Below are positions 1 to 18,000 of a stretch of 44,519 nucleotides of DNA, piece by piece. The stretch lies in NCBI RefSeq assembly GCF_902826855.1, contig NZ_CADEGK010000012.1:1-44519 (forward strand), read 5' to 3'. Position 1 is the stretch's first letter. Each line of letters opens with the position of its first letter. The notes under the pieces were generated by a model that was not told the origin of the DNA, searched no databases, and saw only the letters and a list, made by a program, of their open reading frames with translations. The DNA is from an uncultured Phenylobacterium sp. GTDB taxonomy: Bacteria > Pseudomonadota > Alphaproteobacteria > Caulobacterales > Caulobacteraceae. Position numbers and translations under genes: made by a program.

Positions 1-135
1 GAGGAACAGCGGGCCCTCGACCGCGTCGGCCAGAGCGGCCACGTCATGGCCCGCCAAGTGCAGCCGCCCGTCCACGAACCTAAGGTCCGGCCGGGTCCAC
101 CAGAAGTCCGCGCCCGGCGCCGGCCCAACGCTCAT
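1..135 (-). CDS. PLP-dependent decarboxylase-like protein, N-terminal fragment (runs off the window)
   Basis: The first 45 codons of a minus-strand gene are visible; the rest lies before base 1. The start ATG (135-133) overlaps the TGA of the SET-domain gene in an ATGA junction, so the two are translationally coupled. The N-terminus (W-W-x-R-P-D near residue 12, then H-D-V-A-A-L-A near 29 and G-P-L-F-L at the edge) resembles the opening of fold-III PLP enzymes of the Orn/DAP/Arg decarboxylase family, where a short strand and V-x-x-L-A helix precede a G-T-P-x-F/Y-V-Y segment. The PLP-binding lysine lies outside the window, so the family call is an inference from a short fragment. Confidence 0.55.
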   Translation of the reverse strand, partial: MSVGPAPGADFWWTRPDLRFVDGRLHLAGHDVAALADAVEGPLFL

Positions 136-557
136 TCCAGGCTCGCCAGATAGGTCCGGCCGTCCTCGTCGGGCTCCTCCGCCCGGCCGGTGATCCAGTG
201 GCGGCAAGCCGCCGCGCCGCAGTGGCAGGCAAACTGCCGAAAGAGCACGTCCTCGGTCGCCGCGTAGTCAATGGTCAGGAGGTCGCCCGCCGCGATGTCC
301 CGCAGCGCCACCAGTTCGGAGCGCCCCATGTCCAGCCGGCAGTCCGGGTCGCAACTGTGCGACAGGAAGCCGATCACCTTGGTTTCGGCGATATGCCGCC
401 CTGGCGCCACCTGCAGGGTGTGCTGTTTCAGGTCCGGTCCGACCACCCCGGTGAAATGGTGGATCACCTCGCCGGCCCGCCGCGCGACAAGCGTGCGGAC
501 GCCCCGGCCGTGGGGCCCGGAGGTATGCCACACCTGAAGCTGGTCGATTTCATCCAT
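132..557 (-). CDS. SET-domain protein-lysine N-methyltransferase
   Basis: A 141-residue single-domain SET protein. The SET signature is clear: F-L-S-H-S-C-D-P-D-C at about 64-73 (the N-H-S-C-x-P-N-like SAM and lysine-channel motif), G-D-L-L-T-I-D-Y at 91-98 with the active-site Tyr98, and a post-SET cysteine cluster C-H-C-G-A-A-A-C at 111-118 that would bind zinc with a SET cysteine. Family members transfer methyl groups from SAM to protein lysines. The usual Asn of N-H-S-C is Ser here. The gene is coupled by an ATGA overlap to a decarboxylase-like gene, so the substrate may be that pathway's protein rather than chromatin; this is inference. No signal peptide is seen, so it is probably cytoplasmic. 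Confidence 0.85.
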   Translation of the reverse strand: MDEIDQLQVWHTSGPHGRGVRTLVARRAGEVIHHFTGVVGPDLKQHTLQVAPGRHIAETKVIGFLSHSCDPDCRLDMGRSELVALRDIAAGDLLTIDYAATEDVLFRQFACHCGAAACRHWITGRAEEPDEDGRTYLASLE

Positions 558-633: not shown

Positions 634-1065
634 TCAGGAAGCCGACCCGGGCGAATAGGTCCTCGAAAAGCGCAAGTGATTGCGCCCGGCGCTGTGCTCG
701 TAGGCCACGGTGTCCATCAGCGTCCTGACCAGGTGGATCCCCAGACCGCCGATGGGCCTGTCCTCGACCGAGCCGGTAGTGTCCGGGACGGGCGCCGCGG
801 TGGGGTCGAAAGCCCGGCCATCATCGCTGACCTCGACGGCGATCCGGCCGTCGGAGACTTGCAGATCGACCTTCACCGCTGGTGCGGTCCCGCCCTCGCC
901 GCCGTGGTTCAGGAGGTTGGCCAACACCTCGTCGAGGGCGATCAACACCGGGGCGATCGCGGTGAGGGGCGCGCCGGCGGCCTCCAGGTGCGCCTCGATG
1001 GCGTCCATCAGCGCAGATAGGCCCGCGCGACCGTCGGAGAGCGTTCCGGAGAAGTCCGATTCCAT
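634..1065 (-). CDS. RsbW-like anti-sigma/switch serine kinase (HATPase_c_2)
   Basis: A 143-residue GHKL ATPase of the RsbW/SpoIIAB type. Visible motifs are the N-box L-D-E-V-L-A-N-L-L-N-H at about 44-54, the G1 box D-D-G-R-A-F-D-P at 81-88 and the G2 region G-G-L-G-I-H-L-V near 106-113. These kinases phosphorylate a serine on a STAS antagonist and bind a sigma factor or other target. The chosen ATG at 1065 fits the family; a GTG at 1101 would add 12 residues but has no ribosome site. The gene is divergent from the STAS gene at 1160, with 94 bp between starts. No sigma factor gene is nearby, so the output partner is unknown. Confidence 0.88.
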   Translation of the reverse strand: MESDFSGTLSDGRAGLSALMDAIEAHLEAAGAPLTAIAPVLIALDEVLANLLNHGGEGGTAPAVKVDLQVSDGRIAVEVSDDGRAFDPTAAPVPDTTGSVEDRPIGGLGIHLVRTLMDTVAYEHSAGRNHLRFSRTYSPGSAS

Positions 1066-1159
1066 ACCGCCCGCCTGCCACGGGACCTTGCGGGAAGCCA
1101 CCGCACAAGCTTAGTCAGGTGGCCGGATATCTCAACGTCTGGCGACGAGGTCTGGTGAG

Positions 1160-1492
1160 ATGGACATCCGTGAAGAGACCCGCGGCGATGTCCTGGTGGT
1201 GACCGCCGCCGGTCGCCTGGATTCCAACACCGCCGCGGTGCTGGAGGCCGTGCTGCCGGCCCGCGCGCAGGCCACCCCCAAGCTCGTGCTCGATCTCTCG
1301 GGCGTGCCCTACGTCAGCTCCGCCGGCTTGCGCATCCTGCTGATGGGCGCCAAGGCGGCCCGTGCGGCGGGCCACAAGCTGGTCCTTGCGGGCCTCTCGC
1401 CCTCGGTGCGCGAGGTGTTCGACATCTCCGGCTTCACCAGCATCTTCGCCATCGAACCGGACGTGGACGCGGCCCTAGCCGGGCTGGGCTGA
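1160..1492 (+). CDS. STAS-domain anti-anti-sigma factor (RsbV-like)
   Basis: A 110-residue single STAS domain. The hallmark is L-V-L-D-L-S-G-V-P-Y-V-S-S-A-G-L-R at about 42-57, which holds the phosphorylatable serine (Ser53 or Ser54) at the start of helix 2. In partner switching the unphosphorylated form binds and sequesters the RsbW-type kinase, and a PP2C/SpoIIE phosphatase regenerates it. The genes for the kinase (634-1065) and a SpoIIE phosphatase (7001-8665) lie in the same locus. Its 3' end overlaps the convergent gene at 1475 by 18 bp, so the two transcripts would be antisense there. Confidence 0.92.
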   Translation: MDIREETRGDVLVVTAAGRLDSNTAAVLEAVLPARAQATPKLVLDLSGVPYVSSAGLRILLMGAKAARAAGHKLVLAGLSPSVREVFDISGFTSIFAIEPDVDAALAGLG

Positions 1493-2728
1493 GGCCGCCT
1501 TCAGCACCGCCAGGACCCCGTTCGCCGCCAGCAGCGCCGCCAGGTCGTCCGCGATCGCCGCGGCCGAGAGCCCGGTCGCCTGCGCCACATAGGCGGCCGC
1601 CTTGCCGTCGTTGTCGCCATCCAGCAGGGCCAGGTTCGTCACCGGCGGTTCGCCGGCCCAGTCCGTCCAGGCCACCCGGCTGAGCGCGAAGGCGGCCTGT
1701 CCCTGCGCCACCCGCGCCCCCGCAACGCCGTCCAGCAGCGCACGTTCGAAGAACCGGCGCGCGGCCAGCGCCCGCGCCAGGGCCTCGGCCGGGGTCGCCC
1801 CGGCGCACTCGCCCAACACCAGGCCGGCGCGCCCGCCTGCGCTCGCCAGCGCGTAGAATGTTCCCGCCGGGGCCGTCCCCAGCATCCGAACGGCCAGGTC
1901 CGCGCCCCCGGCCTGCGTGGCCAGCGGCGGGAAGGCGGTCTCGCGGAACGCCGCCACCGCAACGGCCTCGTCGCGCCTGCGGTCGCGCATGGCCAGCTCG
2001 CGGGCTCCCCGGGCGAGGCGGCCGTCGACGCCGGTCCTCATCAACCGGACCGCGTGGGCCAGGTCGCGGGTCTCCCGGATGCCGAACGCGGCGTCGCTCT
2101 CCGCCACCGCTCCTTCCAGCCGGCCGTTCGCCTGGATCGCATCGATCGCGGCCCGGTTGCGGCCGAGCTCGCCGCGTATGCGGCCGGCCACCATCCAGGC
2201 GAGACCGAAGCCTACGATGGCCGCGGCTGCCACCAGGCCGGCGATCAGCCGCTCCAGGCCCGCCACCTGGGCGTACAGCGGTTCCGCGTCGATCTGGGCG
2301 ATCACATAGCGGCCGCCGGAAGCCGGGGCGACGGCGGTCGCCAGGTGGCGGCCCGCGGCGTCCGTGGTGATCGGCAGAGCGGTCGGCCTGACCGGATGCG
2401 GGAGGCGGGGGGGCCCGACTGCGCCGCCACGCCCGGCGATGCGCACCGGCGGTCCTTCGCCGGCCACCACGTAGAGTCCCACCAGGCCGGCGACGTTGGT
2501 CCCGGCGGCCACGAACGCCGCATCGCGCCGTGGGTCGGCGAGGATCTTCGCCAGGTCATCGTATCCGGACGCGAAGGCCGCCGTGGTCACCGCCGCGGCG
2601 ACGGCCTGATCCTCCAGGCCCTGCGCGGCCTCCGCCCGCTCCCAGAAGTAGAGCAGCGCCCCGTTGATGCCGGCCAGCAGCAGGAACAGTGGGGCCACCA
2701 ACAGCAGGAAGGTCTGGCGCAGGCTCAT
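1475..2728 (-). CDS. Membrane sensor with degenerate SpoIIE/PP2C-like domain
   Basis: A protein of 417 residues. The start ATG (2728-2726) overlaps the stop of the CNB gene (ATGA). TM1 lies at about 5-28, an extracytoplasmic region at 29-160, TM2 at about 165-188, then a HAMP-like linker. The C-terminal 170 residues follow the layout of the active SpoIIE protein encoded at 7001: a linker ending F-P-P, a strand, then G-T-F-Y-A-L where the active enzyme has G-G-D-L-Y-D, and G-E-C-A-G-A-T-P where it has G-D-V-S-G-K-G-V-P. Both metal-binding aspartates are missing, and no F-T-D-G-V-x-E or D-D-I-A segment is found, so I infer a pseudophosphatase. A plain HAMP-sensor annotation would also fit the N-terminal half. 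Confidence 0.8.
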   Translation of the reverse strand: MSLRQTFLLLVAPLFLLLAGINGALLYFWERAEAAQGLEDQAVAAAVTTAAFASGYDDLAKILADPRRDAAFVAAGTNVAGLVGLYVVAGEGPPVRIAGRGGAVGPPRLPHPVRPTALPITTDAAGRHLATAVAPASGGRYVIAQIDAEPLYAQVAGLERLIAGLVAAAAIVGFGLAWMVAGRIRGELGRNRAAIDAIQANGRLEGAVAESDAAFGIRETRDLAHAVRLMRTGVDGRLARGARELAMRDRRRDEAVAVAAFRETAFPPLATQAGGADLAVRMLGTAPAGTFYALASAGGRAGLVLGECAGATPAEALARALAARRFFERALLDGVAGARVAQGQAAFALSRVAWTDWAGEPPVTNLALLDGDNDGKAAAYVAQATGLSAAAIADDLAALLAANGVLAVLKAASAQPG

Positions 2729-3108
2729 GTCGCCGCCGCCGGGTCGCGCAAACCGACCACGAACTCCGGGCATTCGCGCGCGATGGTGAAGACGTGCGGC
2801 TTGGCGATGACGATGGCGCTCAGGCCCTGCGGTCCCGCCACGTAGTCGTCCCCCGCGGCGAGGCCGAACAGCAGCCCCGGCGCGTCGAACACCGCCGGGG
2901 CGGCCCGGCCGGCGGTCTCCGCGACGCCTTCGATCACCACGAACAGGTGCTCGGCCACCTGTCCGCCCGCCAGGATCACCCGGCCCGGCGGATAGTCGCG
3001 CAGCCGCGCGTGGCCGGCGATCAGCAGCAACTCGAGGTCGTCCAGCCGCGTGAACGGCTCGACGGTCCTCAGCGCGAAGAGGGTGCGGACGGTCTCGGCG
3101 CCGATCAT
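2725..3108 (-). CDS. Cyclic nucleotide-binding domain protein (stand-alone CNB)
   Basis: A 127-residue single-domain protein. The start is the ATG at 3108, overlapping the previous gene's stop (ATGA); its own stop overlaps the next start the same way. The fold reads as a cNMP-binding beta-roll: F-T-R-L-D-D-L-E-L-L near 18-27, a Y-P-P-G-R-V-I-L-A-G-G strand-turn near 39-49, H-L-F-V-V-I-E-G-V-A near 54-63 and G-L-L-F-G-L near 77-82. The canonical G-E-x-S followed by R-x-A phosphate-binding cassette is not obvious, so ligand binding is doubtful. There is no DNA-binding domain. Its place between two membrane sensors suggests an accessory or scaffold role in the locus (inference). Confidence 0.78.
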   Translation of the reverse strand: MIGAETVRTLFALRTVEPFTRLDDLELLLIAGHARLRDYPPGRVILAGGQVAEHLFVVIEGVAETAGRAAPAVFDAPGLLFGLAAGDDYVAGPQGLSAIVIAKPHVFTIARECPEFVVGLRDPAAAT

Positions 3109-4307
3109 CGACCGGCCTCCCAGGAGAACACCCGCTGGCCGACCTCCACGCCCCCGGCGGTCTGCGTCAGCACGACGGGCCGTTCGCCCAGCACACGGGC
3201 CGTGCGCGCCCTGCGGTCCAGCACCACCACGGTCCCCTCGGCTAGCGCAGTCCAGTCCTTGGCCAAAGCCGGTTCCGCCTCGATCCGCTCGGCGAGCGCG
3301 CGCATGGCCCGTCGCTGCAACAGCGCCGCCGCGTCGGTCCCCTCCGGCGAGATCCACACCGCCAGCAGGTCCTCGGTGTCGACCAGGGTGACCATGTCCG
3401 GTTCACCGGCCAGCACCTCGGCCAAGACCGCGAAATTCCGCCTCCGGTCCTCCGCCAGCATCTCCCCCCAGGCGGTGCGCATTCGCGCGATGAGGGCGGT
3501 GGCGAGGTCGGCCAGCGCCTGGCGCAGACCGGTCACTTCGCGCGGCGCCGCGCCGCGGCCGGGCGGGTTACGGTCGCCGGCCGCGATCCGCAGCGCATCG
3601 GCCTTCAGGGCCTCGATCGGCCGGGCCACGCCGCGCATGATCGCCAGCGTCACCAGGGCGCAGGCGAGCAGCGAACCGACGCCGATCAGGGCGCTGGCGA
3701 ACAGCGCGTTCTGGGTGGCCACCTGGATGACGCCGATGTTCACGTCGGCCCCCACCGTGGCCACGATCCGCCCGTCGCTCCCGCGGGCGGGGGCCGCGGC
3801 GGTCTTCAACAGGCCCCATTGCTCCTGGTACTGGATCGGCGAGGCGTAGATCGCCCCTCGGGCGGTGACGGCGCGCAGGCCCGCCATGGTGTCGGCCGGC
3901 AGCTCATCCTCTGTGCCGATCGGCGAGTGATCCTCGCCCTGGGTGGAGTCGAGCACATAGATGACGCCCTTGGTCCCGCCGATCACCTGGGAATAGAGGT
4001 AGGTCAGGCCGAGCTCGCGGCGGATGCGCCGCATGGGTTCCACGTTGCGGAGGTAGCGCGGATCCTTCTCCACCACGTCGGGCGGCGCGCCCGCGCGCGC
4101 CTGAGCGATCAGCCAGTCATGATCGGCCGGGTCGATCAGGGCGGCGGTGAGCGCGCTGGTGGTGGTCAGCTTGCGGGCGAAGCCGTCCAGGATGGTGTCG
4201 TAGAGGCGGTTGTAGACCACCGCCCCCAGCGCGATCGCCACCACCACGATCGCCGGGGTGAACGTGCGCCACAGGAGGGCCTGGATCGTGATCCCTTCAG
4301 GCCGCAT
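3105..4307 (-). CDS. HAMP-domain membrane sensor protein
   Basis: A protein of 400 residues. The chosen ATG (4307-4305) overlaps the end of the NTT-like gene by 11 bp; longer in-frame starts would run deep inside that gene. TM1 lies at about 13-36. An extracytoplasmic sensor of about 150 residues follows, with L-T-Y-L-Y-S near 100 and a D-G-R-I-V-A-T-V-G-A-D-V end strand near 180-191. TM2 lies near 200-222, then a HAMP segment beginning R-G-V-A-R-P-I-E-A-L. The sensor resembles that of the SpoIIE protein encoded at 7001 (E-L-Q-Y-V-Y-T and Y-V-V-G-A-D-I). The last 130 residues match no catalytic domain I recognise. Confidence 0.78.
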   Translation of the reverse strand: MRPEGITIQALLWRTFTPAIVVVAIALGAVVYNRLYDTILDGFARKLTTTSALTAALIDPADHDWLIAQARAGAPPDVVEKDPRYLRNVEPMRRIRRELGLTYLYSQVIGGTKGVIYVLDSTQGEDHSPIGTEDELPADTMAGLRAVTARGAIYASPIQYQEQWGLLKTAAAPARGSDGRIVATVGADVNIGVIQVATQNALFASALIGVGSLLACALVTLAIMRGVARPIEALKADALRIAAGDRNPPGRGAAPREVTGLRQALADLATALIARMRTAWGEMLAEDRRRNFAVLAEVLAGEPDMVTLVDTEDLLAVWISPEGTDAAALLQRRAMRALAERIEAEPALAKDWTALAEGTVVVLDRRARTARVLGERPVVLTQTAGGVEVGQRVFSWEAGR

Positions 4308-6930
4308 AGGCCCGCCCGTCGCGCGCCCGCAGCATGGTGAGCGCCAGGTCCGGATAGCGCGCCGCCACGTCGTCGATGTCCGCCTTCGAGAGCCACATCG
4401 AAGGGCCGGGCAGGACCAGCTCGACAGGCCGGCGGCCAAAAGGCTGCGGCATCGCCCGCTCGGCCAGCACCACCAGCGCCTCCAGGGAGGCGCTGGCGAA
4501 CTCCGGGATGGCGCGGAGCGCGGCTGCCAGGTCGACCACGGTGGGACCGGCCTCCAGGGACAGGAGCGCAGCCAGGCTGTCCCGGTAGACGGCCGCCAGG
4601 CCGGGCTTCAGCGCGCCGCGCAGATGCGCGGCCAGCGCCTCGGCGGGCAGGTGATCCCGCAGCGCCTGGGCTGCGGCGACGGCCTCCAGCGCATTGCCCT
4701 CCTCGATCGCCGCTTTCAACAGCGGCGCGACGTCTCCCCCGCCCGCGAAGGCCTCCGTCGCCGGCCGGCGGGCGATCAGCGGCTCCAGGCGGTGGTAGGT
4801 GGCGTTGTCGACGCCGCTGGCGATGGCCTCAATGGCGTTGCCGCGCACCTTGGGGTTGGCGGAGTGCAGCGAGACGATCAGGAGGTCGAAGTCGGGGACC
4901 AGGCCGCCCAGGGCCAGCAGTTCCAGGGTGAAATCGACCGAGCCGGCGATCCGCTCGCGGTAGGCCCGGGCCAGCAGGGACATCGCCGGCGAGGGCTCCG
5001 GCTCGGCCTCCAGCCGCTCGGCGATACTCAGGCGCGGGCCGGTCTCGCCCAACTCCTCGTCCACCAGCCGCGAGAGCTGCGACAGGAATTGGGCGTGGCT
5101 GAGAGCGCTCAGCGCGCGGGCCGCCACGGCCCGCGCCCGATACGGCGCCTGGTAGGCGCTCAGCACCTGCATCAGGCGGGGGATCGCCGCCTCGCCGAGA
5201 TCGACCATCAGCGCTTCGACGGCCCGCAACTCGCGGGGGCTGAGCCGCGCCGCCGCCGCCAGCACCTGCGGGATCGCCTCGACGTCGCCGATCTGGGCCA
5301 GCAGTTGCAGGATGGTCTGGCGGCTCTCGCGGTCCATGCGCGGGAGGTTGTCGATCAGCGGCGCCACCAGGCCGATGTCCCCCGGCCCGACCACGCTGAC
5401 CAGCGCCTGCAGGGCGTACTTGCGCTGCGAGATCGACGGATCGGCGAGCTTGGCGGCGAAGGCGGCGGTGGCGTCCGACGCATCCGTCTCGATGGCGTCA
5501 TGGACGCTCGGCCGCTCGGACTGCCGGTGCAGCAGGGCCCGCGCCGCCGCCGCAGTGGCCGAGTCCGTCTCGGCCGCCTTCTCGCGCAGCAGCGCCTGGC
5601 CGTCGGCGTCGAAGACCGGCGTACGCAGGTCGGCCTCGCCGAAGTTGAGCCAGCCGCGGCGCATGTTGGCCTCCATAGCCGCCGGGTAGACGGCCCGCAG
5701 CGCCACGACCACGGCCACCAGGCCCGCGGCCGCCAACAGCCCGATCCCCGACAGCTCGCGGATGTCCAGCTGCCTGGCGAACAGCAGCAGGAATGCGCCG
5801 GACACCAGGCTGGCCAGGGGCTCGCCCATGCCCTCGACGATGGTCCGGAACGGCCGCTTCACCTGGCTGGGCGCGGCGTTGAACATCAGGTTCTGGTTGT
5901 TGTAGTCGATCGAGGTCAGCACGCCGTGGTAGGCGAAGAAGGCCCCCAGCGCCGCGCCCGTCCCGCCCTGGAGGAAGAAGAACGCGAACACCGCGAAGTA
6001 GGTGACCGGCAGGATCAGGGCGACGTTCCTCACCCCCAGCCGCGTGACCAGCCGGTTGAACAGGAACAGGCAGACCAACAGGTTGAAGATGCTGGCCGCG
6101 CCGTAGAGCCGGCCGAACAGCGCCGCCAGCTCCGCCTCCGAGCGCCCGGCCTGCAGCACCGAGGAATACTGGAACTCCGCCAGGTTGGTGAGCAGCAGGG
6201 TCATGAACAGCGCCAGGGTCAGCAGCGAGGCGTAGCGCGAGGTGCGGAAGGTGCGGATCACCAGCACGAGCTGGCTCTTCACGTCGCGGACCTCGTCCTC
6301 GAGGTCGGTGTCGCTGTCGGCGATCCGCTTCCAGCGTCGCCGGATCAGCCGCGCCACCGGCAGGGTCGCCGCCGCCACGCCGGCCCAGACCAGCAGGAAG
6401 ACCGGCATCGGGATGAATGCCGCGAAGCTGCCGACCACCAGCGCCCCGATCGCCGTGCCGAGGGCGCAGAAGGCGGCGAACAGCGGGAACAGCCGCTTGG
6501 CGTCCTGGATGTCGAAATAGGCGTCGGTGAAGGTCCAGAACAGCGAGTAGAGGCCGATGTACCACATGGCCAGGTACAGCTTCAGCGCATAGTAGCCGTA
6601 AGTCTTCCACTCCGCCGGCAGCGGCGCCGAGAGCAGCGCCCAGCCGATCAGCCCGCCCGCCCCCAGCAGCACCAGGGTCAGGTCGATCACCCGGCCCGGC
6701 GAAAAGCGCACCTGCAGGTAGGAGAAGATCGCGGTGTAGACGACCATCACCACCGGCGTGAGCAGGAAGATGATCGGCAGCTTGCCCGGGCCCACATTGC
6801 TCAGGAACGCCGCGTCCCCGGCGCTGAAGCCGATGCCCAGGCCCACCTGCAGCATCAGGCCGAACAGCCCGAACTGCAGCAGCTTAGGCCACTCGCCGGC
6901 CTCGACCTTGAAGAGGCGATTGAAGAGGAT
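4297..6930 (-). CDS. NTT-family (ATP/ADP translocase-like) membrane protein with C-terminal HEAT repeats
   Basis: About 877 residues. The first 430 or so form 11-12 hydrophobic segments in the MFS-like NTT (Npt1/Npt2) pattern. From about 480 the protein becomes alpha-solenoid, with repeated A-x-x-A-L/L-x-x-L-G helix pairs typical of HEAT repeats. NTT proteins of intracellular bacteria swap ATP for ADP; free-living bacteria carry HEAT-fused relatives with no settled role. The first ATG/GTG/TTG is at 6855, but NTT-like coding (G-E-W-P-K-L-L, then a helix) continues 25 codons upstream. An ATC at 6930-6928 lies 8 nt from a GGAGG (6943-6939), so I place the start there. This is the first gene of a four-gene coupled operon, divergent from the SpoIIE gene. 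Confidence 0.85.
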   Translation of the reverse strand: MLFNRLFKVEAGEWPKLLQFGLFGLMLQVGLGIGFSAGDAAFLSNVGPGKLPIIFLLTPVVMVVYTAIFSYLQVRFSPGRVIDLTLVLLGAGGLIGWALLSAPLPAEWKTYGYYALKLYLAMWYIGLYSLFWTFTDAYFDIQDAKRLFPLFAAFCALGTAIGALVVGSFAAFIPMPVFLLVWAGVAAATLPVARLIRRRWKRIADSDTDLEDEVRDVKSQLVLVIRTFRTSRYASLLTLALFMTLLLTNLAEFQYSSVLQAGRSEAELAALFGRLYGAASIFNLLVCLFLFNRLVTRLGVRNVALILPVTYFAVFAFFFLQGGTGAALGAFFAYHGVLTSIDYNNQNLMFNAAPSQVKRPFRTIVEGMGEPLASLVSGAFLLLFARQLDIRELSGIGLLAAAGLVAVVVALRAVYPAAMEANMRRGWLNFGEADLRTPVFDADGQALLREKAAETDSATAAAARALLHRQSERPSVHDAIETDASDATAAFAAKLADPSISQRKYALQALVSVVGPGDIGLVAPLIDNLPRMDRESRQTILQLLAQIGDVEAIPQVLAAAARLSPRELRAVEALMVDLGEAAIPRLMQVLSAYQAPYRARAVAARALSALSHAQFLSQLSRLVDEELGETGPRLSIAERLEAEPEPSPAMSLLARAYRERIAGSVDFTLELLALGGLVPDFDLLIVSLHSANPKVRGNAIEAIASGVDNATYHRLEPLIARRPATEAFAGGGDVAPLLKAAIEEGNALEAVAAAQALRDHLPAEALAAHLRGALKPGLAAVYRDSLAALLSLEAGPTVVDLAAALRAIPEFASASLEALVVLAERAMPQPFGRRPVELVLPGPSMWLSKADIDDVAARYPDLALTMLRARDGRAYAA

Positions 6931-6938
6931 GTGGGCGC

Positions 6939-6943
6939 CCTCC
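6939..6943 (-). promoter_or_regulatory. Ribosome binding site (GGAGG) pointing to a non-canonical ATC start
   Basis: On the minus strand GGAGG is followed by 8 nt and then ATC (6930-6928), in frame with the NTT-like gene. No ATG, GTG or TTG occurs in this frame between the upstream TAG (6960-6958) and the ATG at 6855. The site decides the start choice for that gene. Confidence 0.55.
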
Positions 6944-7000
6944 GCGGGCTTTATGGACTAGCCTGGATTCGCGGATGATTGGGGCGGGCGCGCAAGCCGG

Positions 7001-8665
7001 ATGAACGAGCTCACCGGAGAAAACCCCCTCGCAGGCGAACAGCCGAGCCACCGTCGCCGGTTCGGCTTGAAGTCCCAGCTCCTGCTCCTGCTGTTCACAC
7101 TGAACGTGGTCGCCGCCGGCGCCTACTCGGCCGTGCTCTACGAGGTCGACCGCACCGAGATCATCGCCGGCATCGACGGGCGGCTGAAGACCGCGGCCCT
7201 GGCGGTCGCCGAAATGGCCCCCGGCGCCTACCACGTGCGGGTCACCGGCCCGGGCTCGATCACGACCGACGAGTATGACCGCCTGCAGCGCCAGCTCTCG
7301 CGCTTCGCCGACGGCGCGGAGCTGCAGTACGTCTACACCTACATGCGCTTCGGACGGGAGATCCGCACCGTCTCGACCAGCGCCACGCCGCGGGAGTGGC
7401 AGGCCAACACCCGCATCCGGTTCTTCGCCCACTACCGGGAGGCGCCCCCCAAGCTCCACCAGACGTTCGCCGACGGGCGGCCGAGGTTCGACGAGTACAA
7501 GGACGAGTTCGGCGCCTTCCGCTCGATCTACCTGCCCATGAAGGCCCCCGACGGGCGGACCTACGTGGTGGGCGCCGACATCCCCCTGGGCACCGTCCGC
7601 GAGCGCCTGAGTGACGCACTGAGGACCTCGATCGCGGTCGGCGTGGCCATGTTCGGCCTCTCCATGGCGCTGGGCTGGCTGCTGGTCGACCGCATCATCG
7701 GGCCGCTCATCCGGCTCACGGCCTTCACCCGCAATATCGGCCAGCGCAACTTCCAGCCGGACGAGACCGAGACCGCGGCGCTCAGCAAGATCAGCCGCAG
7801 CCGTCCCGACGAGGTCGGTAGCCTGGCCGAGGCCATGACGGCGATGATCGCGCGCCTGCAGCGCTACCTGGTGGAGATGCAACAGGCCACCGCGGCGCGC
7901 GAGCGGGTCGAGGGCGAGTTGTCCGCCGCACGCGACATCCAGGCCGGCATGCTGCCCCGGACCTTCCCGCCGTTCCCCGACCGGCGGGACGTGGACGTCT
8001 TCGCCCTGCTGGAATCCGCCAAGCAGGTGGGCGGTGACCTCTACGACTATGCCCTGATCGACCGCGACCGGCTGTTCTTCGTGGTCGGCGACGTGTCCGG
8101 CAAGGGCGTGCCGGCGGCGCTTTTCATGGCCATGACCACCACGCTGTTCAAAGCCGCGGCGCTGGGCGCGCTGACCACGGGCGAACTCATGGCCCGGGTG
8201 AACGCCGAACTGGCCCGCGACAACGCCGCCCAGATGTTCGTCACCGCCGTCTGCGGCATCCTCGACCTTGCGACCGGCGACGTGCAGTACTCCGACGGCG
8301 GCCACGAGGCGCCCTTCGTCCGCCGCGCCGATGGCCGGCTGGAGCGGCTGCCGAAGCTGCCCGGCATGGCGCTGGGCATCTTCGACGACACCACCTTCGA
8401 GACCGGCCGCTTCCAGCTCGCGCCGGGCGACGCCCTGGTCCTGTTTACCGACGGCGTCTCCGAAGCCGCCAACCTCGACGACGACCTGTTCACCGTGGGC
8501 CGCATCGAGACCGCGCTCGCGGCCACCCGCCCGGTGATCGACGCGCGCGGCCTGGCGCAGGGCCTGGCCGAGGACGTCAGGGTGTTTGTCGGCGAGGCCG
8601 CCCAGTCCGACGACATCGCCATACTGGTGGTGCGGTACGAGGGGCCGGCGCGGCGTGGCCCCTGA
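7001..8665 (+). CDS. SpoIIE/RsbU-type PP2C phosphatase with periplasmic sensor and HAMP domain
   Basis: A protein of 554 residues. TM1 lies at about 24-46, an extracytoplasmic sensor at 47-205 (E-L-Q-Y-V-Y-T-Y-M near 107, D-G-R-T-Y-V-V-G-A-D-I near 185), TM2 at about 208-230, HAMP at about 231-285, then a short coiled linker with A-R-D-I-Q-A-G-M-L-P near 307-316. The PP2C domain runs to the end with all metal-binding motifs: G-G-D-L-Y-D near 344, G-D-V-S-G-K-G near 363, F-T-D-G-V-S-E-A near 483 and S-D-D-I-A near 537. Such enzymes dephosphorylate STAS antagonists, here most likely the protein at 1160-1492. No clear Shine-Dalgarno precedes the ATG. The gene is divergent from the NTT operon. 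Confidence 0.93.
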   Translation: MNELTGENPLAGEQPSHRRRFGLKSQLLLLLFTLNVVAAGAYSAVLYEVDRTEIIAGIDGRLKTAALAVAEMAPGAYHVRVTGPGSITTDEYDRLQRQLSRFADGAELQYVYTYMRFGREIRTVSTSATPREWQANTRIRFFAHYREAPPKLHQTFADGRPRFDEYKDEFGAFRSIYLPMKAPDGRTYVVGADIPLGTVRERLSDALRTSIAVGVAMFGLSMALGWLLVDRIIGPLIRLTAFTRNIGQRNFQPDETETAALSKISRSRPDEVGSLAEAMTAMIARLQRYLVEMQQATAARERVEGELSAARDIQAGMLPRTFPPFPDRRDVDVFALLESAKQVGGDLYDYALIDRDRLFFVVGDVSGKGVPAALFMAMTTTLFKAAALGALTTGELMARVNAELARDNAAQMFVTAVCGILDLATGDVQYSDGGHEAPFVRRADGRLERLPKLPGMALGIFDDTTFETGRFQLAPGDALVLFTDGVSEAANLDDDLFTVGRIETALAATRPVIDARGLAQGLAEDVRVFVGEAAQSDDIAILVVRYEGPARRGP

Positions 8666-8761: not shown

Positions 8762-9349
8762 CTACCCCCCCGGCCGGCGGATCATCGGGTAGATGCCGGG
8801 GAAGTCGCCTGGCTGGACGAAGCCCATGACCTCGAAGCCGTAGCGTTCGTAGAGCGGGACGTTCTTGGGGTTCGAGCTTTCGAGGTAGGCCATCACGCCG
8901 TCCTCGTCGCAGCGCCGCAGGGATTGCTTGAGGATCGCCGAGCCGAGACCGCGGCCCTGCCGCGCCGGGTCGACGCCGATCATCGCCAGGTACCAGTGCG
9001 GCTCGTCCGGATGGTAGGCGGCCATGGTCTCGCCCACCTCGCCCAGCACCGGCAGCTTCTCCGGCCGGGCCAGTTCGCCGATCACCGCGAGCATCGCGGC
9101 CTGGTCCGATTCGACGCCCGGCGGCAGCCACAGCGCCGCGGCCGCCCCGTCCTCGGCGAGCCACGCCGTTCCCTGCGCCAATCCGGCCCCGCCCATCGCC
9201 ATCGCGAACCGACGGAAGCCCGCGAAGAGCGCCTCCGGCGTATCCAGCAGGTAGCGCAGGCACGGGTCCGAGGCGAAGGCCAGCATCAGGGTGTTGAGCA
9301 CCGCGTCCTGCTCGGACGCCTCGGCGACGCGAACCTCAGGTGGGCTCAT
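8762..9349 (-). CDS. GNAT-family N-acetyltransferase
   Basis: A 195-residue single GNAT domain. The acetyl-CoA pyrophosphate loop is clear as R-Q-G-R-G-L-G-S-A at about 134-142, preceded by the strand W-Y-L-A-M-I-G-V-D-P. The C-terminal V-P-L-Y-E-R-Y-G-F-E-V strand near 165-175 is also standard. The substrate cannot be deduced. The ATG (9349-9347) overlaps the TGA of the cyclase-like gene (ATGA), making this the third gene of a Crp-cyclase-GNAT operon. Confidence 0.9.
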   Translation of the reverse strand: MSPPEVRVAEASEQDAVLNTLMLAFASDPCLRYLLDTPEALFAGFRRFAMAMGGAGLAQGTAWLAEDGAAAALWLPPGVESDQAAMLAVIGELARPEKLPVLGEVGETMAAYHPDEPHWYLAMIGVDPARQGRGLGSAILKQSLRRCDEDGVMAYLESSNPKNVPLYERYGFEVMGFVQPGDFPGIYPMIRRPGG

Positions 9350-10221
9350 GGTTTGGCTCCCAGCTTCGCCGCCGGCCGGTCGCGGCCGTGCACTTTCTTC
9401 AGATAGAGCCGCATGTCGTCGATCACCTTGCGCAGTTCGGCGGCCGGCGTCGGCTTGGCGCTGACGGCGGCGGCGATCAGCGGGTCGGTCTCGATCTCCC
9501 AGGGCAGGAAGGCCACCTTCTCCGAGGCCGCGTGCATCCAGATGATCGGATAGGCCCGTCCGAACATCACGCCCTTCAGCGGCTCACGGCCCATCAGGTA
9601 CAGCGCCGCGTCGCCGGCGTTGCGCGAGTCCAGCAGCACTTCCAGCACGTCCAGCGACAGCACCATGATCCCCGGCTTGGCGAACTTGGTGATTCGGAAG
9701 CCGAGGTCGATGTCGGGGCCGATGTAGTCGAGATAGGCCCCCTGGCCGCTGGAAAGCTCCGGCACCTCGATCTCTATGTTCGCGCCGTCGAAGTCGGCGA
9801 ACCAGGCGGTGGCCTTCAGCCGCATCGGCATCTCGGCGAAGTGCCGCGCCTCGTACAGCGACATGGCGCGCAGCACGGCGATCAGGGTCGACGTCAGCTC
9901 CTCGGGCGTCTGCGGGGTGGTGACGAACAGCACCTCGTCGCCCATCACCTTCCACACGTCGATGGCCGGCGTGGCGTCGTCGTCCAGGAACTGAAAGCCG
10001 ATCTGGCCGGCCACCATCAGCGGGAAACTGGTGAAGAAGGTGCGGAAGATATCCAGCCAGCCATCCGAGCTCTGGCCGGTGAACCGCGCCTTGAACTCGG
10101 TGGACCCCACCATGTCGACCGACAGGAACAGACGAAGCAAGGACGCCCCCGGGGCAGCGTGGGGCCCGCGCCGGCCCCGTTCGCGTCTGTACGCGACCAC
10201 GCCGGGGCGGGCCAGCCGCAA
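9346..10221 (-). CDS. Class III nucleotidyl cyclase-like protein
   Basis: The reading frame opens with TTG at 10221, two bases after the Crp-family gene ends. The first 27 codons are Arg/Pro-rich and unlike a domain, and a second TTG at 10140 fits the domain start better. The core carries cyclase-homology features: L-F-L-S-V-D-M-V-G-S-T (first metal Asp, as in F-x-D-I-x-G-F-T), K-V-M-G-D-E-V-L-F-V (second metal Asp) and Y-I-G-P-D-I-D-L-G-F-R-I near the position of the transition-state Asn-x3-Arg pair. There the Arg is kept and the Asn appears to be Asp. It may make a cyclic nucleotide or be a degenerate sensor. It has no membrane segment. Confidence 0.7.
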   Translation of the reverse strand: MRLARPGVVAYRRERGRRGPHAAPGASLLRLFLSVDMVGSTEFKARFTGQSSDGWLDIFRTFFTSFPLMVAGQIGFQFLDDDATPAIDVWKVMGDEVLFVTTPQTPEELTSTLIAVLRAMSLYEARHFAEMPMRLKATAWFADFDGANIEIEVPELSSGQGAYLDYIGPDIDLGFRITKFAKPGIMVLSLDVLEVLLDSRNAGDAALYLMGREPLKGVMFGRAYPIIWMHAASEKVAFLPWEIETDPLIAAAVSAKPTPAAELRKVIDDMRLYLKKVHGRDRPAAKLGAKP

Positions 10222-15005: not shown

Positions 15006-16439
15006 ATGACCGACCACTCCTCTGACCCGCCCGCCCGGCCCGCGCCCAGTTCCGCGCCCGTGGGACAGGCTATGTGGGGCGGCCGGTTTTCCGGCAAGCC
15101 GGCCGAACTGATGCAGGCGATCAATGTCTCCATCGGCTTCGACCGCCGCCTCGCGCCGCAAGACCTCGCGGGGTCCAGCGCGCACGCGGCGATGTTGCAA
15201 AGCGTGGGCGTCATTTCAAGCGAGGACGCAGCCGCCATCCAGGGCGGTCTGCAGCAGATCGAGGCCGAGATCGCCGCCGGGACATTCCCGTTCCGCGAAG
15301 AGTTCGAGGACATCCACATGAATGTGGAAGCCCGGCTGCGCGAGCTGATCGGCCCGGCCGCCGGACGACTGCACACCGCGCGCTCGCGCAACGACCAGGT
15401 CGCGCTGGATTTCCGCATGTGGGTCCGTGAGGCTTGCGAGCGGTCCCTGGGCCAGGTCCAGGCCCTGCAGCTGGCGCTGCTGGCCAAGGCCGAGGCCCAC
15501 GCCGACGCGGTGATGCCGGGCTTCACCCACCTGCAGCCGGCCCAGCCGGTGACCTTCGGCCACCACCTTATGGCCTACGTCGAGATGTTCGGCCGCGACG
15601 CCACGCGCTTCCAGGACGCCGCCCTGCGGATGAACGAAAGCCCGCTCGGGGCGGCCGCACTGGCGGGATCGCCGTTTCCGATCGATCGGCAGATGACCGC
15701 CGCCGCGCTCGGTTTCGCGCGGCCCACCGCCAACTCCCTGGACAGCGTCGCGGACCGCGACTTCGCCCTGGAAGCCCTGGCCGCCGCCACCATCTGCGCC
15801 ACGCACCTGTCGCGGCTTGCCGAGGAGATCGTCATCTGGATGACGCCGCAGTTCGGCTTCATCAAGCTGTCGGACGCCTTCACCACCGGCTCGTCGATCA
15901 TGCCGCAGAAGAAGAACCCCGACGCGGCCGAGTTGGTGCGCGCCAAGGTTGGCCGCCTCCTGGGATCGTTCACCCAGCTCACGGTGGTGATGAAGGGCCT
16001 GCCGCTGACCTATTCGAAGGACATGCAGGAGGACAAGGTCCCCACCTTCGAGGCCTTCGACGCCCTGGAGCTCAGCCTCCTGGCCATGGCCGGCATGGTC
16101 GGTGACCTGGAGCCCAACCGCGAGAAGATGGCGGCGGCCGCGGGCGCCGGCTACTCCACCGCCACCGACCTCGCCGACTGGCTGGTCCGAGAGCTGGACC
16201 TGCCGTTCCGCGACGCCCACCACATCACCGGGGCGGCGGTGAAGCAGGCCGAGGCCGCCGGCGTCGCCCTGGGCGACCTGCCACTGGCCAAGCTGCAGGG
16301 GCTGGACAACCGCATCACCGCGGCGGTCTACGAGGTGCTCACGCCGCAGGCATCGGTCGCCAGCCGCAAGAGTTATGGTGGGACCGCCCCGGACCAGGTC
16401 CGGGCGCAGGTCGCACGTTGGAAGGAGTTGCTGGGATGA
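15006..16439 (+). CDS. argH: Argininosuccinate lyase
   Basis: A 477-residue protein of the fumarase/aspartase superfamily that splits argininosuccinate into arginine and fumarate, the last step of arginine synthesis. Signatures are M-W-G-G-R-F near 23-28, H-T-A-R-S-R-N-D-Q near 121-129, T-H-L-Q-P-A-Q-P near 173-180 and the signature loop [11 protein letters not shown] near 295-305. The 22-residue N-terminal extension is usual in alphaproteobacteria. The start is back to back with tlpA. The stop overlaps the next start (ATGA), beginning an argH-lptM-lysA operon. Confidence 0.97.
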
Positions 16440-16723
16440 GCCGTCGCTTAACCGTCATCGGATGCGCCATGGTCCTGGCAGCTGGCCTGGCCGGCTGCGG
16501 CAAGGTGGGCGACCTGGAGCGTCCGGGGCCGCTGTTCGGCGCCAAGGGCAGGGCCGCCGATGCGCCCCCGCCGCAGGACCCGACCCGCCCCGTCGAGACC
16601 GTCGACCCGCGCGACCGCTCCACCGACAACCTGCCGGCGCGCGCGGCGCCGATCCCCGGCTCCGGCGCGGTCAGGCCCCCGCCGCCCGGCGCGCTGCCCG
16701 ACCCGTTCCTCAATCCGCAATGA
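16436..16723 (+). CDS. LptM/YifL-like small lipoprotein
   Basis: A 95-residue lipoprotein. Signal peptide 1-20 ends in the lipobox L-A-G-C with Cys21, followed by G-K-V-G-D-L-x-x-P, close to the C-G-x-x-G-x-L-x-x-P motif of LptM (YifL). The rest is Pro-rich and disordered. LptM helps mature the LPS transporter LptD in enterobacteria. In E. coli yifL sits by dapF, and here it sits between argH and lysA, the same lysine/DAP neighbourhood. The ATG overlaps the argH stop, and its stop overlaps the lysA ATG. Confidence 0.85.
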
Positions 16724-18000
16724 ACCACTTCGATCTGGTCGAAGGCGAGGGCGGCGGCGAACTCTACTGCGAGGGCGTTCCGCTGAGCCGGATCGCCGAG
16801 GCGGTCGGCACGCCGGTCTATGTCTATTCCACCGCCACCCTGGAGCGGCACTACACCGTCCTGCGCGACGCCCTGGTCGGCGCGGGCCTGAAGGACCCGC
16901 TGATCGCCTACGCGGTGAAGGCCAATTCCAACGTCGCGGTCCTGCGCACCCTGGGGAACCTGGGCGCCGGCGCGGACACCGTGTCCGAAGGCGAGATCCG
17001 CCGCGCGCTGGCCGCCGGCATCCCCGGCGAGCGCATCGTCTTCTCCGGCGTCGGCAAGACCGAGGGCGAAATCGCGTTCGCCCTGGCCCACGGCGTGGCC
17101 GAGATCAACGTCGAGGCCGAGCCGGAGCTCCACCTGGTCAACCGCGTCGCCCAGCGGTTGGGGACCCGCGCCGAGGTAGCTATCCGGGTGAACCCCGACG
17201 TCGAGGCGGGCGGCCACGCCAAGATCTCCACCGGCAAGGCAGACAACAAGTTCGGCGTCTCCCTGTCCGAGGCCGAGCGACTCTACGCCAACGCCGCCAA
17301 CATGGCCGGCGTCCGCCCGGTCGGCGTCGCCTGCCACATCGGCAGCCAGATCACCGACCTGGCCCCCATGGAGGCCGCCTTCGGCAAGATGCGCGGCCTG
17401 GTCGAGCGCATCCGCAAGGAGGGCCTGACCGTCGAGCGCCTCGACCTGGGCGGCGGCCTGGGCGTGCCCTACTTCAACCAGCCCACCCCGCCGACGCCGG
17501 CCGACTACGCCGCCATGATCGGCCGCGTGACCCAGGGCCTGGACATCCGCTTCGCCTTCGAGCCCGGCCGGATGATCGCCGCCAACGCCGGCGTCCTCCT
17601 CGCCCGGGTGATCCTGGTCCACGAACGGCCCGAGGGCCGCCGCTTCCTGGTTATCGACGCGGCCATGAACGACCTGCTCCGCCCGGCCATGTACGACGCC
17701 TACCACGACATCCGCCCGGTCAAGCCGCGGCCGGGCGAGCCGCTCCCCTATGATGTGGTGGGCCCGATCTGCGAGACCGGCGACACCTTCACCCGCGATC
17801 GCGTCCTGCCGCCGCTGGAGGCCGGCGACCTCGTGGCCTTCATGACCGCCGGCGCCTATGGCGCGGCCATGTCCAGCGAGTACAACTCCCGCCTCCTGGT
17901 CCCCGAGGTGCTCGTGAAGGGCGACCAGTTCGCCGTGGTCCGGCCGAGACCCACCTACGACGACATGCTGGCCAGGGAGGCGCCCGCGCCGTGGCTATAG
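16720..18000 (+). CDS. lysA: Diaminopimelate decarboxylase
   Basis: A 426-residue fold-III PLP enzyme that decarboxylates meso-diaminopimelate to L-lysine. Key motifs: the PLP lysine in Y-A-V-K-A-N-S-N near 64-71, H-I-G-S-Q near 206-210, D-L-G-G-G-L-G near 244-250, E-P-G-R near 284-287 and the C-E-T-G-D segment near 350-354 that supplies the second-subunit cysteine. The start ATG overlaps the TGA of the lipoprotein gene. The 3' end overlaps the convergent GNAT gene by 6 bp. Confidence 0.97.
   Translation: MNHFDLVEGEGGGELYCEGVPLSRIAEAVGTPVYVYSTATLERHYTVLRDALVGAGLKDPLIAYAVKANSNVAVLRTLGNLGAGADTVSEGEIRRALAAGIPGERIVFSGVGKTEGEIAFALAHGVAEINVEAEPELHLVNRVAQRLGTRAEVAIRVNPDVEAGGHAKISTGKADNKFGVSLSEAERLYANAANMAGVRPVGVACHIGSQITDLAPMEAAFGKMRGLVERIRKEGLTVERLDLGGGLGVPYFNQPTPPTPADYAAMIGRVTQGLDIRFAFEPGRMIAANAGVLLARVILVHERPEGRRFLVIDAAMNDLLRPAMYDAYHDIRPVKPRPGEPLPYDVVGPICETGDTFTRDRVLPPLEAGDLVAFMTAGAYGAAMSSEYNSRLLVPEVLVKGDQFAVVRPRPTYDDMLAREAPAPWL

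Follow-up and report, generated by a model that had tools for sequence, protein, structure and literature searches.

Proteins that join a membrane domain of the ATP/ADP-carrier (NTT) family to HEAT repeats, with or without a cyclic nucleotide-binding domain (NTT-HEAT and NTT-HEAT-cNBD), have been described, here and below as far as the available parts of the cited papers go, as a widespread and monophyletic group whose function is unknown, with feedback by cAMP suggested (Major, Embley and Williams 2017, PMC5381601). NTT-HEAT proteins have been found in cyanobacteria, oomycetes and Chlamydia, including an uncharacterised member in Chlamydia trachomatis (PMC5381601). The latter species also possesses a partner-switching relay in which the kinase RsbW binds the main sigma factor, and in which the phosphatase RsbU and its paralogue CT589, lacking metal ligands, make up a pair of one active and one degenerate enzyme (PMC4552016); chlamydial RsbU is reported to sense alpha-ketoglutarate and phosphoenolpyruvate (PMC11619594). 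Partner switches for which no sigma factor was found, or whose targets are unknown, have been described in Rhodobacter, Bordetella and Vibrio (PMC3999984, PMC8256260). Here we describe a block of about ten genes at one end of contig NZ_CADEGK010000012.1 (44,519 nucleotides, hereafter the window; contig C12 of the 4.9-Mb genome, G000, of an uncultured Phenylobacterium sp.), in which genes for an RsbW-like kinase, an RsbV-like STAS protein and a SpoIIE-type phosphatase lie beside an operon headed by an NTT-HEAT gene. Based on sequence comparison, we place at roughly 0.5 the probability that this block encodes one membrane-coupled partner-switching system, and we class it as such a system with NTT-HEAT as its constant partner.

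The relay comprises a serine kinase (634-1101, minus strand; HATPase_c_2, E 4.1e-25, with N, G1 and G2 boxes present), a STAS protein (1160-1492, plus strand; E 2.6e-19) and a SpoIIE-type phosphatase with a periplasmic sensor and a HAMP region (7001-8665, plus strand; E 2.1e-48). Between the latter two lies an operon of four minus-strand genes, encoding NTT-HEAT (4297 to a probable start at about 6930), with its carrier-type membrane domain at approximately residues 1-440 followed by HEAT repeats; a HAMP sensor (3105-4307); a small protein of cyclic nucleotide-binding (CNB) fold (2725-3108); and a membrane protein (1475-2728) with the architecture of the SpoIIE protein and a degenerate phosphatase domain. 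Successive genes overlap by 11 nt (4297-4307), 4 nt (3105-3108) and 4 nt (2725-2728), with overlapping reading frames also present in a copy of the block from Sphingomonas, and the last of them converges on the STAS gene, overlapping its 3' end by 18 nt. The original prediction, which covered positions 634-8665, had recognized the relay with intact motifs and the coupled operon. Domain searches and alignments bear out the genes, coordinates and motifs of the relay as well as all three operon overlaps; the operon's supposed SpoIIE-like member, on the other hand, appears to be a degenerate pseudo-phosphatase, and the span, while corresponding to a real unit, was too narrow in that it omitted conserved genes for a decarboxylase, a SET-domain protein and a cyclase-like protein.

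The unit resembles the NTT-HEAT-cNBD proteins of PMC5381601, in which the cyclic nucleotide-binding domain is fused to the protein or encoded a few nucleotides away, in combining a predicted NTT domain, HEAT repeats at its C-terminal side and a CNB domain. Unlike the arrangements presented in the available part of that paper, NTT-HEAT and CNB are here separated by the gene for a HAMP sensor, the CNB has a degenerate cassette, the next gene encodes a pseudo-phosphatase, and genes for a partner switch, a SET protein and a decarboxylase accompany the operon. The RsbU/CT589/RsbW/RsbV system of C. trachomatis resembles the unit in that a membrane SpoIIE-type phosphatase with a periplasmic sensor and HAMP domain is paired with a membrane paralogue lacking metal ligands, alongside a kinase and STAS proteins (PMC4552016, PMC11619594), but its RsbW binds the main sigma factor (PMC4552016). 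RbaV/RbaW/RbaY of Rhodobacter capsulatus is likewise an alphaproteobacterial STAS/kinase/PP2C switch without a cognate sigma factor found, with overlapping rbaV and rbaW genes; it differs in that its phosphatase is a response-regulator fusion and in that the available part of the paper mentions no NTT, HAMP sensor, CNB or cyclase genes (PMC3999984). BtrUVW and SypA/SypE (PMC8256260) and SiaABC (PMC7647112) are also STAS-based or partner switches with an unknown output or no simple release of a sigma factor, but in the parts of those papers available they are described without a member of the ATP/ADP-carrier family. In a survey of open-licence papers by title and the beginning of the abstract, none of those listed joined a partner switch to an NTT or nucleotide transporter. 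The novelty originally proposed is weakened, as both NTT-HEAT with CNB (PMC5381601) and sigma-less switches (PMC3999984, PMC8256260) have already been published.

From 299 genomes drawn from the family, a sample that need not include all 101 genomes of the genus, 19 were identified with a match to the NTT protein, 16 of which carry NTT-HEAT: 15 of the genus, including the window genome, and one, G038, of another genus. Of the other three matches, two were frames of about the size of an NTT (449 residues in G018, 432 in G283) and the third was a short match to the HEAT part (G260). Together with a plasmid of Sphingomonas paeninsulae, this gave 17 carrier loci, and gene order is identical in the Phenylobacterium relatives, the other genus of the family and the Sphingomonas plasmid. 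Genes for NTT-HEAT, the HAMP sensor, CNB and the pseudo-phosphatase were present in all 17 loci, counting G232, where the contig end leaves just 66 codons of NTT, and G136, where it truncates the pseudo-phosphatase gene. The SpoIIE gene was detected in 16 of 17, the exception being again G232, where the contig ends, as it does before the cyclase-like gene (detected in 15 of 17). STAS, RsbW and SET genes are found beside the operon in 15 of 17 (exceptions G136 and G229); in G232, SET and the decarboxylase are inverted. The proposal that relay and operon form one unit is thus upheld by their adjacency in 15 of 17 carrier loci, and also by G229, which keeps both halves apart. In this genome, the NTT operon, SpoIIE and the cyclase-like gene lie on one contig (C29), with no STAS, RsbW, SET or decarboxylase gene in the 5.3 kb past the pseudo-phosphatase, and STAS, RsbW, SET and the decarboxylase lie on another (C4). 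This retention of both separated halves represents the best evidence of a functional link.

Co-occurrence extends across the genus. Of its 101 genomes, the pseudo-phosphatase profile matches 15, the same 15 in which NTT-HEAT was detected in the family sample, and an RsbW profile, built from carrier rows and one paralogue, defines a strong group (196-231 bits) of 14 genomes, all of them carriers, with G136 as the carrier lacking such a match. A weaker RsbW group (84-150 bits) comprises 26 of the 101 genomes, including 15 of 15 carriers versus 11 of 86 non-carriers (Fisher p 2.6e-11, kinship ignored), and its link to carriers may reflect clade membership. The paralogue mentioned above, which is the window genome's own member of the weaker group, belongs to a separate neighbourhood on contig C75 of the window genome (L043:13751-18899), comprising a second RsbW-like kinase, a SpoIIE protein with a different N-terminus and another STAS protein; neighbourhoods of this type were examined in G000 and G136. 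SET and STAS matches in the non-carrier G074, and a SET match in G354, were rejected as unit members, being weak model matches in other contexts. Taken together, the agreement between operon and relay in their distribution across the genus, the complete block in Sphingomonas and the retention of both halves after the G229 split suggest, at the level of gene content, that the block behaves as a functional unit.

The Sphingomonas paeninsulae plasmid (NZ_CP032828, 850 kb) carries the complete block, from the cyclase-like gene to the decarboxylase, with gene order and orientation unchanged; among 72,556 plasmid records, no other matched the NTT protein at E <= 0.001. Its NTT protein shows approximately 55% identity, and its orthologues of the operon proteins are annotated as an MFS transporter, a HAMP domain-containing protein and a Crp/Fnr family regulator. 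For all seven genes compared, the Phenylobacterium copies stand closer to the Sphingomonas copy than to that of G038, even though G038 is of the same family. In a SpoIIE tree including the C75 paralogue, G038 and Sphingomonas grouped weakly (support 0.301) and the G038 branch was long; faster change in G038 could explain the similarity ranking. Given the patchy distribution of the block, horizontal movement, in one direction or the other, is likely.

Residue conservation indicates that the kinase, STAS and SpoIIE proteins keep their predicted catalytic or phosphorylation residues. In the kinase, Asn52, D-x-G (83-85) and GGxG (108-111) are invariant in 14 aligned rows, with the C75 paralogue among these rows, as it is among those of the following two proteins; matches to the RsbW/SpoIIAB NCBIfam models fall below their equivalog cut-offs, and the best match of its profile in the PDB is RsbW (6m36), with SpoIIAB also among the best solved relatives. 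Ser54 of the STAS protein, within the motif YVSSAGLR, is invariant in 15 of 15 rows, and Asp346, Asp364, Asp484, Asp537 and Asp538 of the SpoIIE protein in 17 of 17. The HAMP region of the latter scores 24.1 bits, just below the cut-off of 25, and its PDB profile matches are confined to the phosphatase region, with none to a sensor domain. The periplasmic and HAMP region is common to the SpoIIE protein and the HAMP sensor (BLASTP E 3e-7; hhalign 96%), the tail of which is poorly conserved and showed no recognisable output domain in Pfam, NCBIfam or its family alignment. The fourth operon protein has no Pfam or NCBIfam match; its alignment with SpoIIE begins at the first membrane helix and runs on into the N-terminal part of the phosphatase domain, where its ligand motifs in the window read GTF and GEC versus GDL and GDV in SpoIIE; its last ~100 residues are unrecognisable as the remainder of that domain. 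From this alignment, it is a predicted pseudo-phosphatase without metal-ligand aspartates.

Four of the original labels were weak as single-sequence Pfam matches, namely TLC (the NTT-HEAT membrane domain, 17.8 bits against a cut-off of 21), HEAT_2 (13.6 against 27.7; E 0.083), HAMP of the sensor (13.9 against 25) and cNMP_binding (19 against 27.5); family alignments support all four. For CNB, the label is retained for the fold and qualified in function: its profile matches cyclic nucleotide-binding structures, and of 60 listed PDB matches 58 end at or before residue 71, ahead of the phosphate-binding cassette, a region strongly conserved among the relatives yet different. No conserved Glu or Arg, which we take to be the signature of this cassette in cNMP-binding domains, was found in the family alignment. 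The closest named relative of the NTT protein is from a Phenylobacterium metagenome-assembled genome (78% identity), and the protein also matches the NTT-HEAT-cNBD protein of G300 (E 1.4e-24), which itself passes the TLC cut-off. Its HEAT repeats are supported by profile matches over approximately residues 500-640 (best E 4.8e-26), mostly to designed HEAT-type alphaRep proteins, in addition to natural proteins such as 6veh and 5n3u. The earlier call of this gene is kept, with its upstream end moved from 6855 to about 6930, to which conservation extends. Translation probably starts there at a rare codon: in the window (6840-6951), no ATG, GTG or TTG is found at the conserved N-terminus, where an ATC with GGAGG upstream is present, and another locus (L024:11340-11435) has ATT, or TTG two codons further. 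A GTG is found at about the same place in 9 of 16 loci, and rare-start control of NTT-HEAT is possible.

Three further genes belong to the conserved block. A gene for a SET-domain protein resembling protein-lysine methyltransferases (132-557, minus strand; PF00856 E 1e-7 and alignment) encodes the sole SET match of the window genome at E <= 0.001. Its stop codon overlaps by 4 nt (ATGA) the ATG, at 133-135, of a gene for a pyridoxal phosphate (PLP) decarboxylase-like protein of diaminopimelate/ornithine decarboxylase fold, of which the window holds the N-terminal piece (1-135, minus strand), truncated at the contig end. This piece scores 37.5 bits against the Sphingomonas decarboxylase, and in 13 other loci a complete decarboxylase gene adjoins SET. 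A second decarboxylase of the same fold lies at 16375-18000 of the window (126.7 bits against the decarboxylase of the Sphingomonas unit); this is perhaps the housekeeping lysA, so that the copy in the unit is likely a paralogue with another substrate. A gene for a TorF-like porin adjoins the decarboxylase in six loci (L026, L027, L028, L029, L030 and L036) and the detached G229 copy (L158), and in Sphingomonas (L085:6762-7409) adjoins the cyclase-like gene.

The third gene, u9346 (9346-10221, minus strand), is a conserved unit member that we read as encoding a divergent homologue of class III nucleotide cyclases. Neither u9346 nor the three relatives tried have a Pfam match, and a comparison of the unit's cyclase-like proteins with one cyclase sequence gave no result. 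An alignment of 11 rows, including relatives on plasmids of Leptospira, Mycolicibacterium and Tistrella, is collinear with eight class III cyclase domains at an hhalign score of 31.5; the highest of 200 column-shuffled controls reached 24.3, the reversed alignment 16.4, and none of eight unrelated families exceeded 19.8. The probability assigned by hhalign itself is 23%, and the unit's own proteins alone score 25.9. Asp29, Lys84, Asp88, Asp158 and Arg169, presumably the metal, base-specificity and transition-state positions of class III cyclases, are invariant in the 11 rows, and an invariant Asp165 stands at the position usually held by Asn. In the PDB, class III cyclases (E 0.025, 0.66 and 0.73) rank below two designed proteins and are the best-matched natural proteins. 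Distant relatives on one Leptospira and one Mycolicibacterium plasmid directly follow an ImmA/IrrE peptidase gene (L090:3484-4924 and L089:5438-7002), an unrelated context for the family. An anti-phage (Pycsar-like) role was rejected, with none of the five window proteins tried (from a unit of ten) matching PADLOC. Also rejected as a unit member was the GNAT gene at 8762-9349, found only in L024, L025, L032 and L034 among the family loci compared (L003 and L024 being the same contig).

Under the partner-switching model, the four co-translated proteins would assemble into a complex at the membrane, with input coming from the NTT-like domain and the HAMP sensor, the HEAT repeats serving as a docking scaffold, and the pseudo-phosphatase and CNB acting as non-catalytic adaptors. 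This complex would set the activity of the SpoIIE phosphatase, the sensor of which is homologous to that of the HAMP sensor. SpoIIE would dephosphorylate STAS, and unphosphorylated STAS would hold RsbW, causing the kinase to release its other partner, which may be a member of the unit (the cyclase-like protein) or a sigma factor encoded elsewhere. The nucleotide or energy sensing originally proposed as feeding the phospho-switch is conjectural. A more specific version, in which NTT-HEAT would act as a nucleotide-responsive transceptor instead of importing nutrients, reading a nucleotide with its carrier-like membrane domain and gating SpoIIE, STAS and RsbW through HEAT, CNB and the pseudo-phosphatase, with most likely the atypical class III cyclase or the SET protein and not a sigma factor as target, we regard as unlikely; if true, it would provide the first function for the NTT-HEAT family, including its members in Chlamydia, cyanobacteria and oomycetes.

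A number of observations weigh against the partner-switching model. We examined five further NTT-HEAT-cNBD loci (G300, G334, G354, G472 and G978), taken from samples that overlapped and comprised 398 genomes for the phylum, 385 for the class and 48 for the class to which G300 belongs. None of the five matches the unit's RsbW, STAS or SpoIIE models; for G334 and G472, both situated at contig ends, this result covers a single flank. The absence of RsbW and STAS at these loci suggests that NTT-HEAT is not generally dependent on them. In addition, no cyclase-like gene is found in G038 within the 3.5 kb remaining before the contig end, and G136 has the NTT operon and SpoIIE, but neither a cognate RsbW nor a cognate STAS was found in its assembly, which is 99% complete. 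The G136 contig ends inside the pseudo-phosphatase gene, cutting the unit, and loss and missing sequence are therefore indistinguishable in this genome. Homology between the pseudo-phosphatase and SpoIIE is moderate (hhalign 60%, E 8.7e-5), two AlphaFold models from two-sequence alignments were too poor to use (mean predicted local distance difference test, pLDDT, 34.8 and 45.4), and co-occurrence within one genus partly reflects shared ancestry. The original prediction had asked for the same neighbourhood across Caulobacterales and other phyla, and had held that an NTT operon usually found without the relay in related genomes would speak against it. Co-occurrence holds among the Caulobacteraceae carriers, no family carrier demonstrably lacking the relay, and fails in distant Pseudomonadota, where 5 of 5 NTT-HEAT loci have no RsbW or STAS nearby. 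Among the latter, the G300 locus (L072:4484-12994) comprises an NTT-HEAT-cNBD fusion, with a PLP decarboxylase and that genome's single SET match encoded on its strand, and with divergent genes for a PP2C phosphatase and for a class III cyclase fused to FHA; it resembles the unit minus RsbW and STAS. In G978 a class III cyclase lies immediately upstream of NTT-HEAT-cNBD. Overall, cyclases are found at two of the five outside loci, and a phosphatase, SET and decarboxylase once each, all being small numbers.

With regard to alternative explanations, the absence of RsbW and STAS from these loci, like the missing cognate RsbW in G136, would also be expected if a sigma-less switch and an NTT operon were adjacent by history only. 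We disfavour this possibility as highly improbable given that both parts occur in the same genomes of the genus, that a Sphingomonas plasmid carries the complete block at an NTT identity of ~55%, and that both halves are retained in G229; a chance neighbourhood is rejected on the same grounds. A classical RsbVWU arrangement merits more weight but is less likely than not. Here RsbW would be an anti-sigma factor acting on a sigma factor whose gene lies elsewhere, possibly the housekeeping factor, as is the case in Chlamydia, with the NTT operon serving as input module. The closest solved relatives of the kinase, RsbW and SpoIIAB, are consistent with this, as are the 15 Sigma70_r2 matches in the genome and the C. 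trachomatis precedent of an RsbW bound to the main sigma factor alongside an active and degenerate RsbU/CT589 pair (PMC4552016). Conversely, and in line with the original statement that no sigma factor is present, none of the 15 Sigma70_r2 matches lies on the window contig, and on this ground we reject an ordinary RsbVWU module with its own sigma factor as the class of the system. Nor is a sigma factor annotated within the Sphingomonas block, the Sphingomonas sigma gene beside FecR and TonB-receptor genes sitting outside it, and in the alphaproteobacterial Rba system a cognate sigma factor was sought without success (PMC3999984).

Transport may instead be primary, with NTT-HEAT a real nucleotide transporter whose activity or genes are regulated by the switch upon a periplasmic signal, and with the porin, decarboxylase and SET protein, under the same doubtful scenario, part of one uptake and use pathway. 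Such a role would fit a membrane domain that seems the most constrained part of the protein (163 of 217 invariant columns fall in residues 1-440, a count for which gaps in L036 and L037 depress the HEAT half), as well as the recurrent porin gene beside the decarboxylase or cyclase-like gene. However, carriers in the genus, with genomes of 3.8-5.8 Mb, are presumably free-living bacteria, the window NTT domain matched no solved carrier among PDB sequences whereas a single-domain NTT did (9j3n), and a transporter has no need of the operon's signalling-type proteins.

Read as a partner-switching system, the block would place NTT-HEAT, a family of unknown function (PMC5381601), in a recognisable phospho-signalling pathway within a non-pathogenic genus. 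Active and dead copies of similar parts, namely the phosphatase, the sensor and the nucleotide-binding fold, are encoded together, and may represent a test case for how pseudo-enzymes set switches. Furthermore, one of the carriers, Sphingomonas paeninsulae YZ-8, is a named strain whose plasmid has been sequenced completely and in which deletions and biochemistry look feasible, so that this block of about ten genes may offer a concrete route to the function of the NTT-HEAT family.

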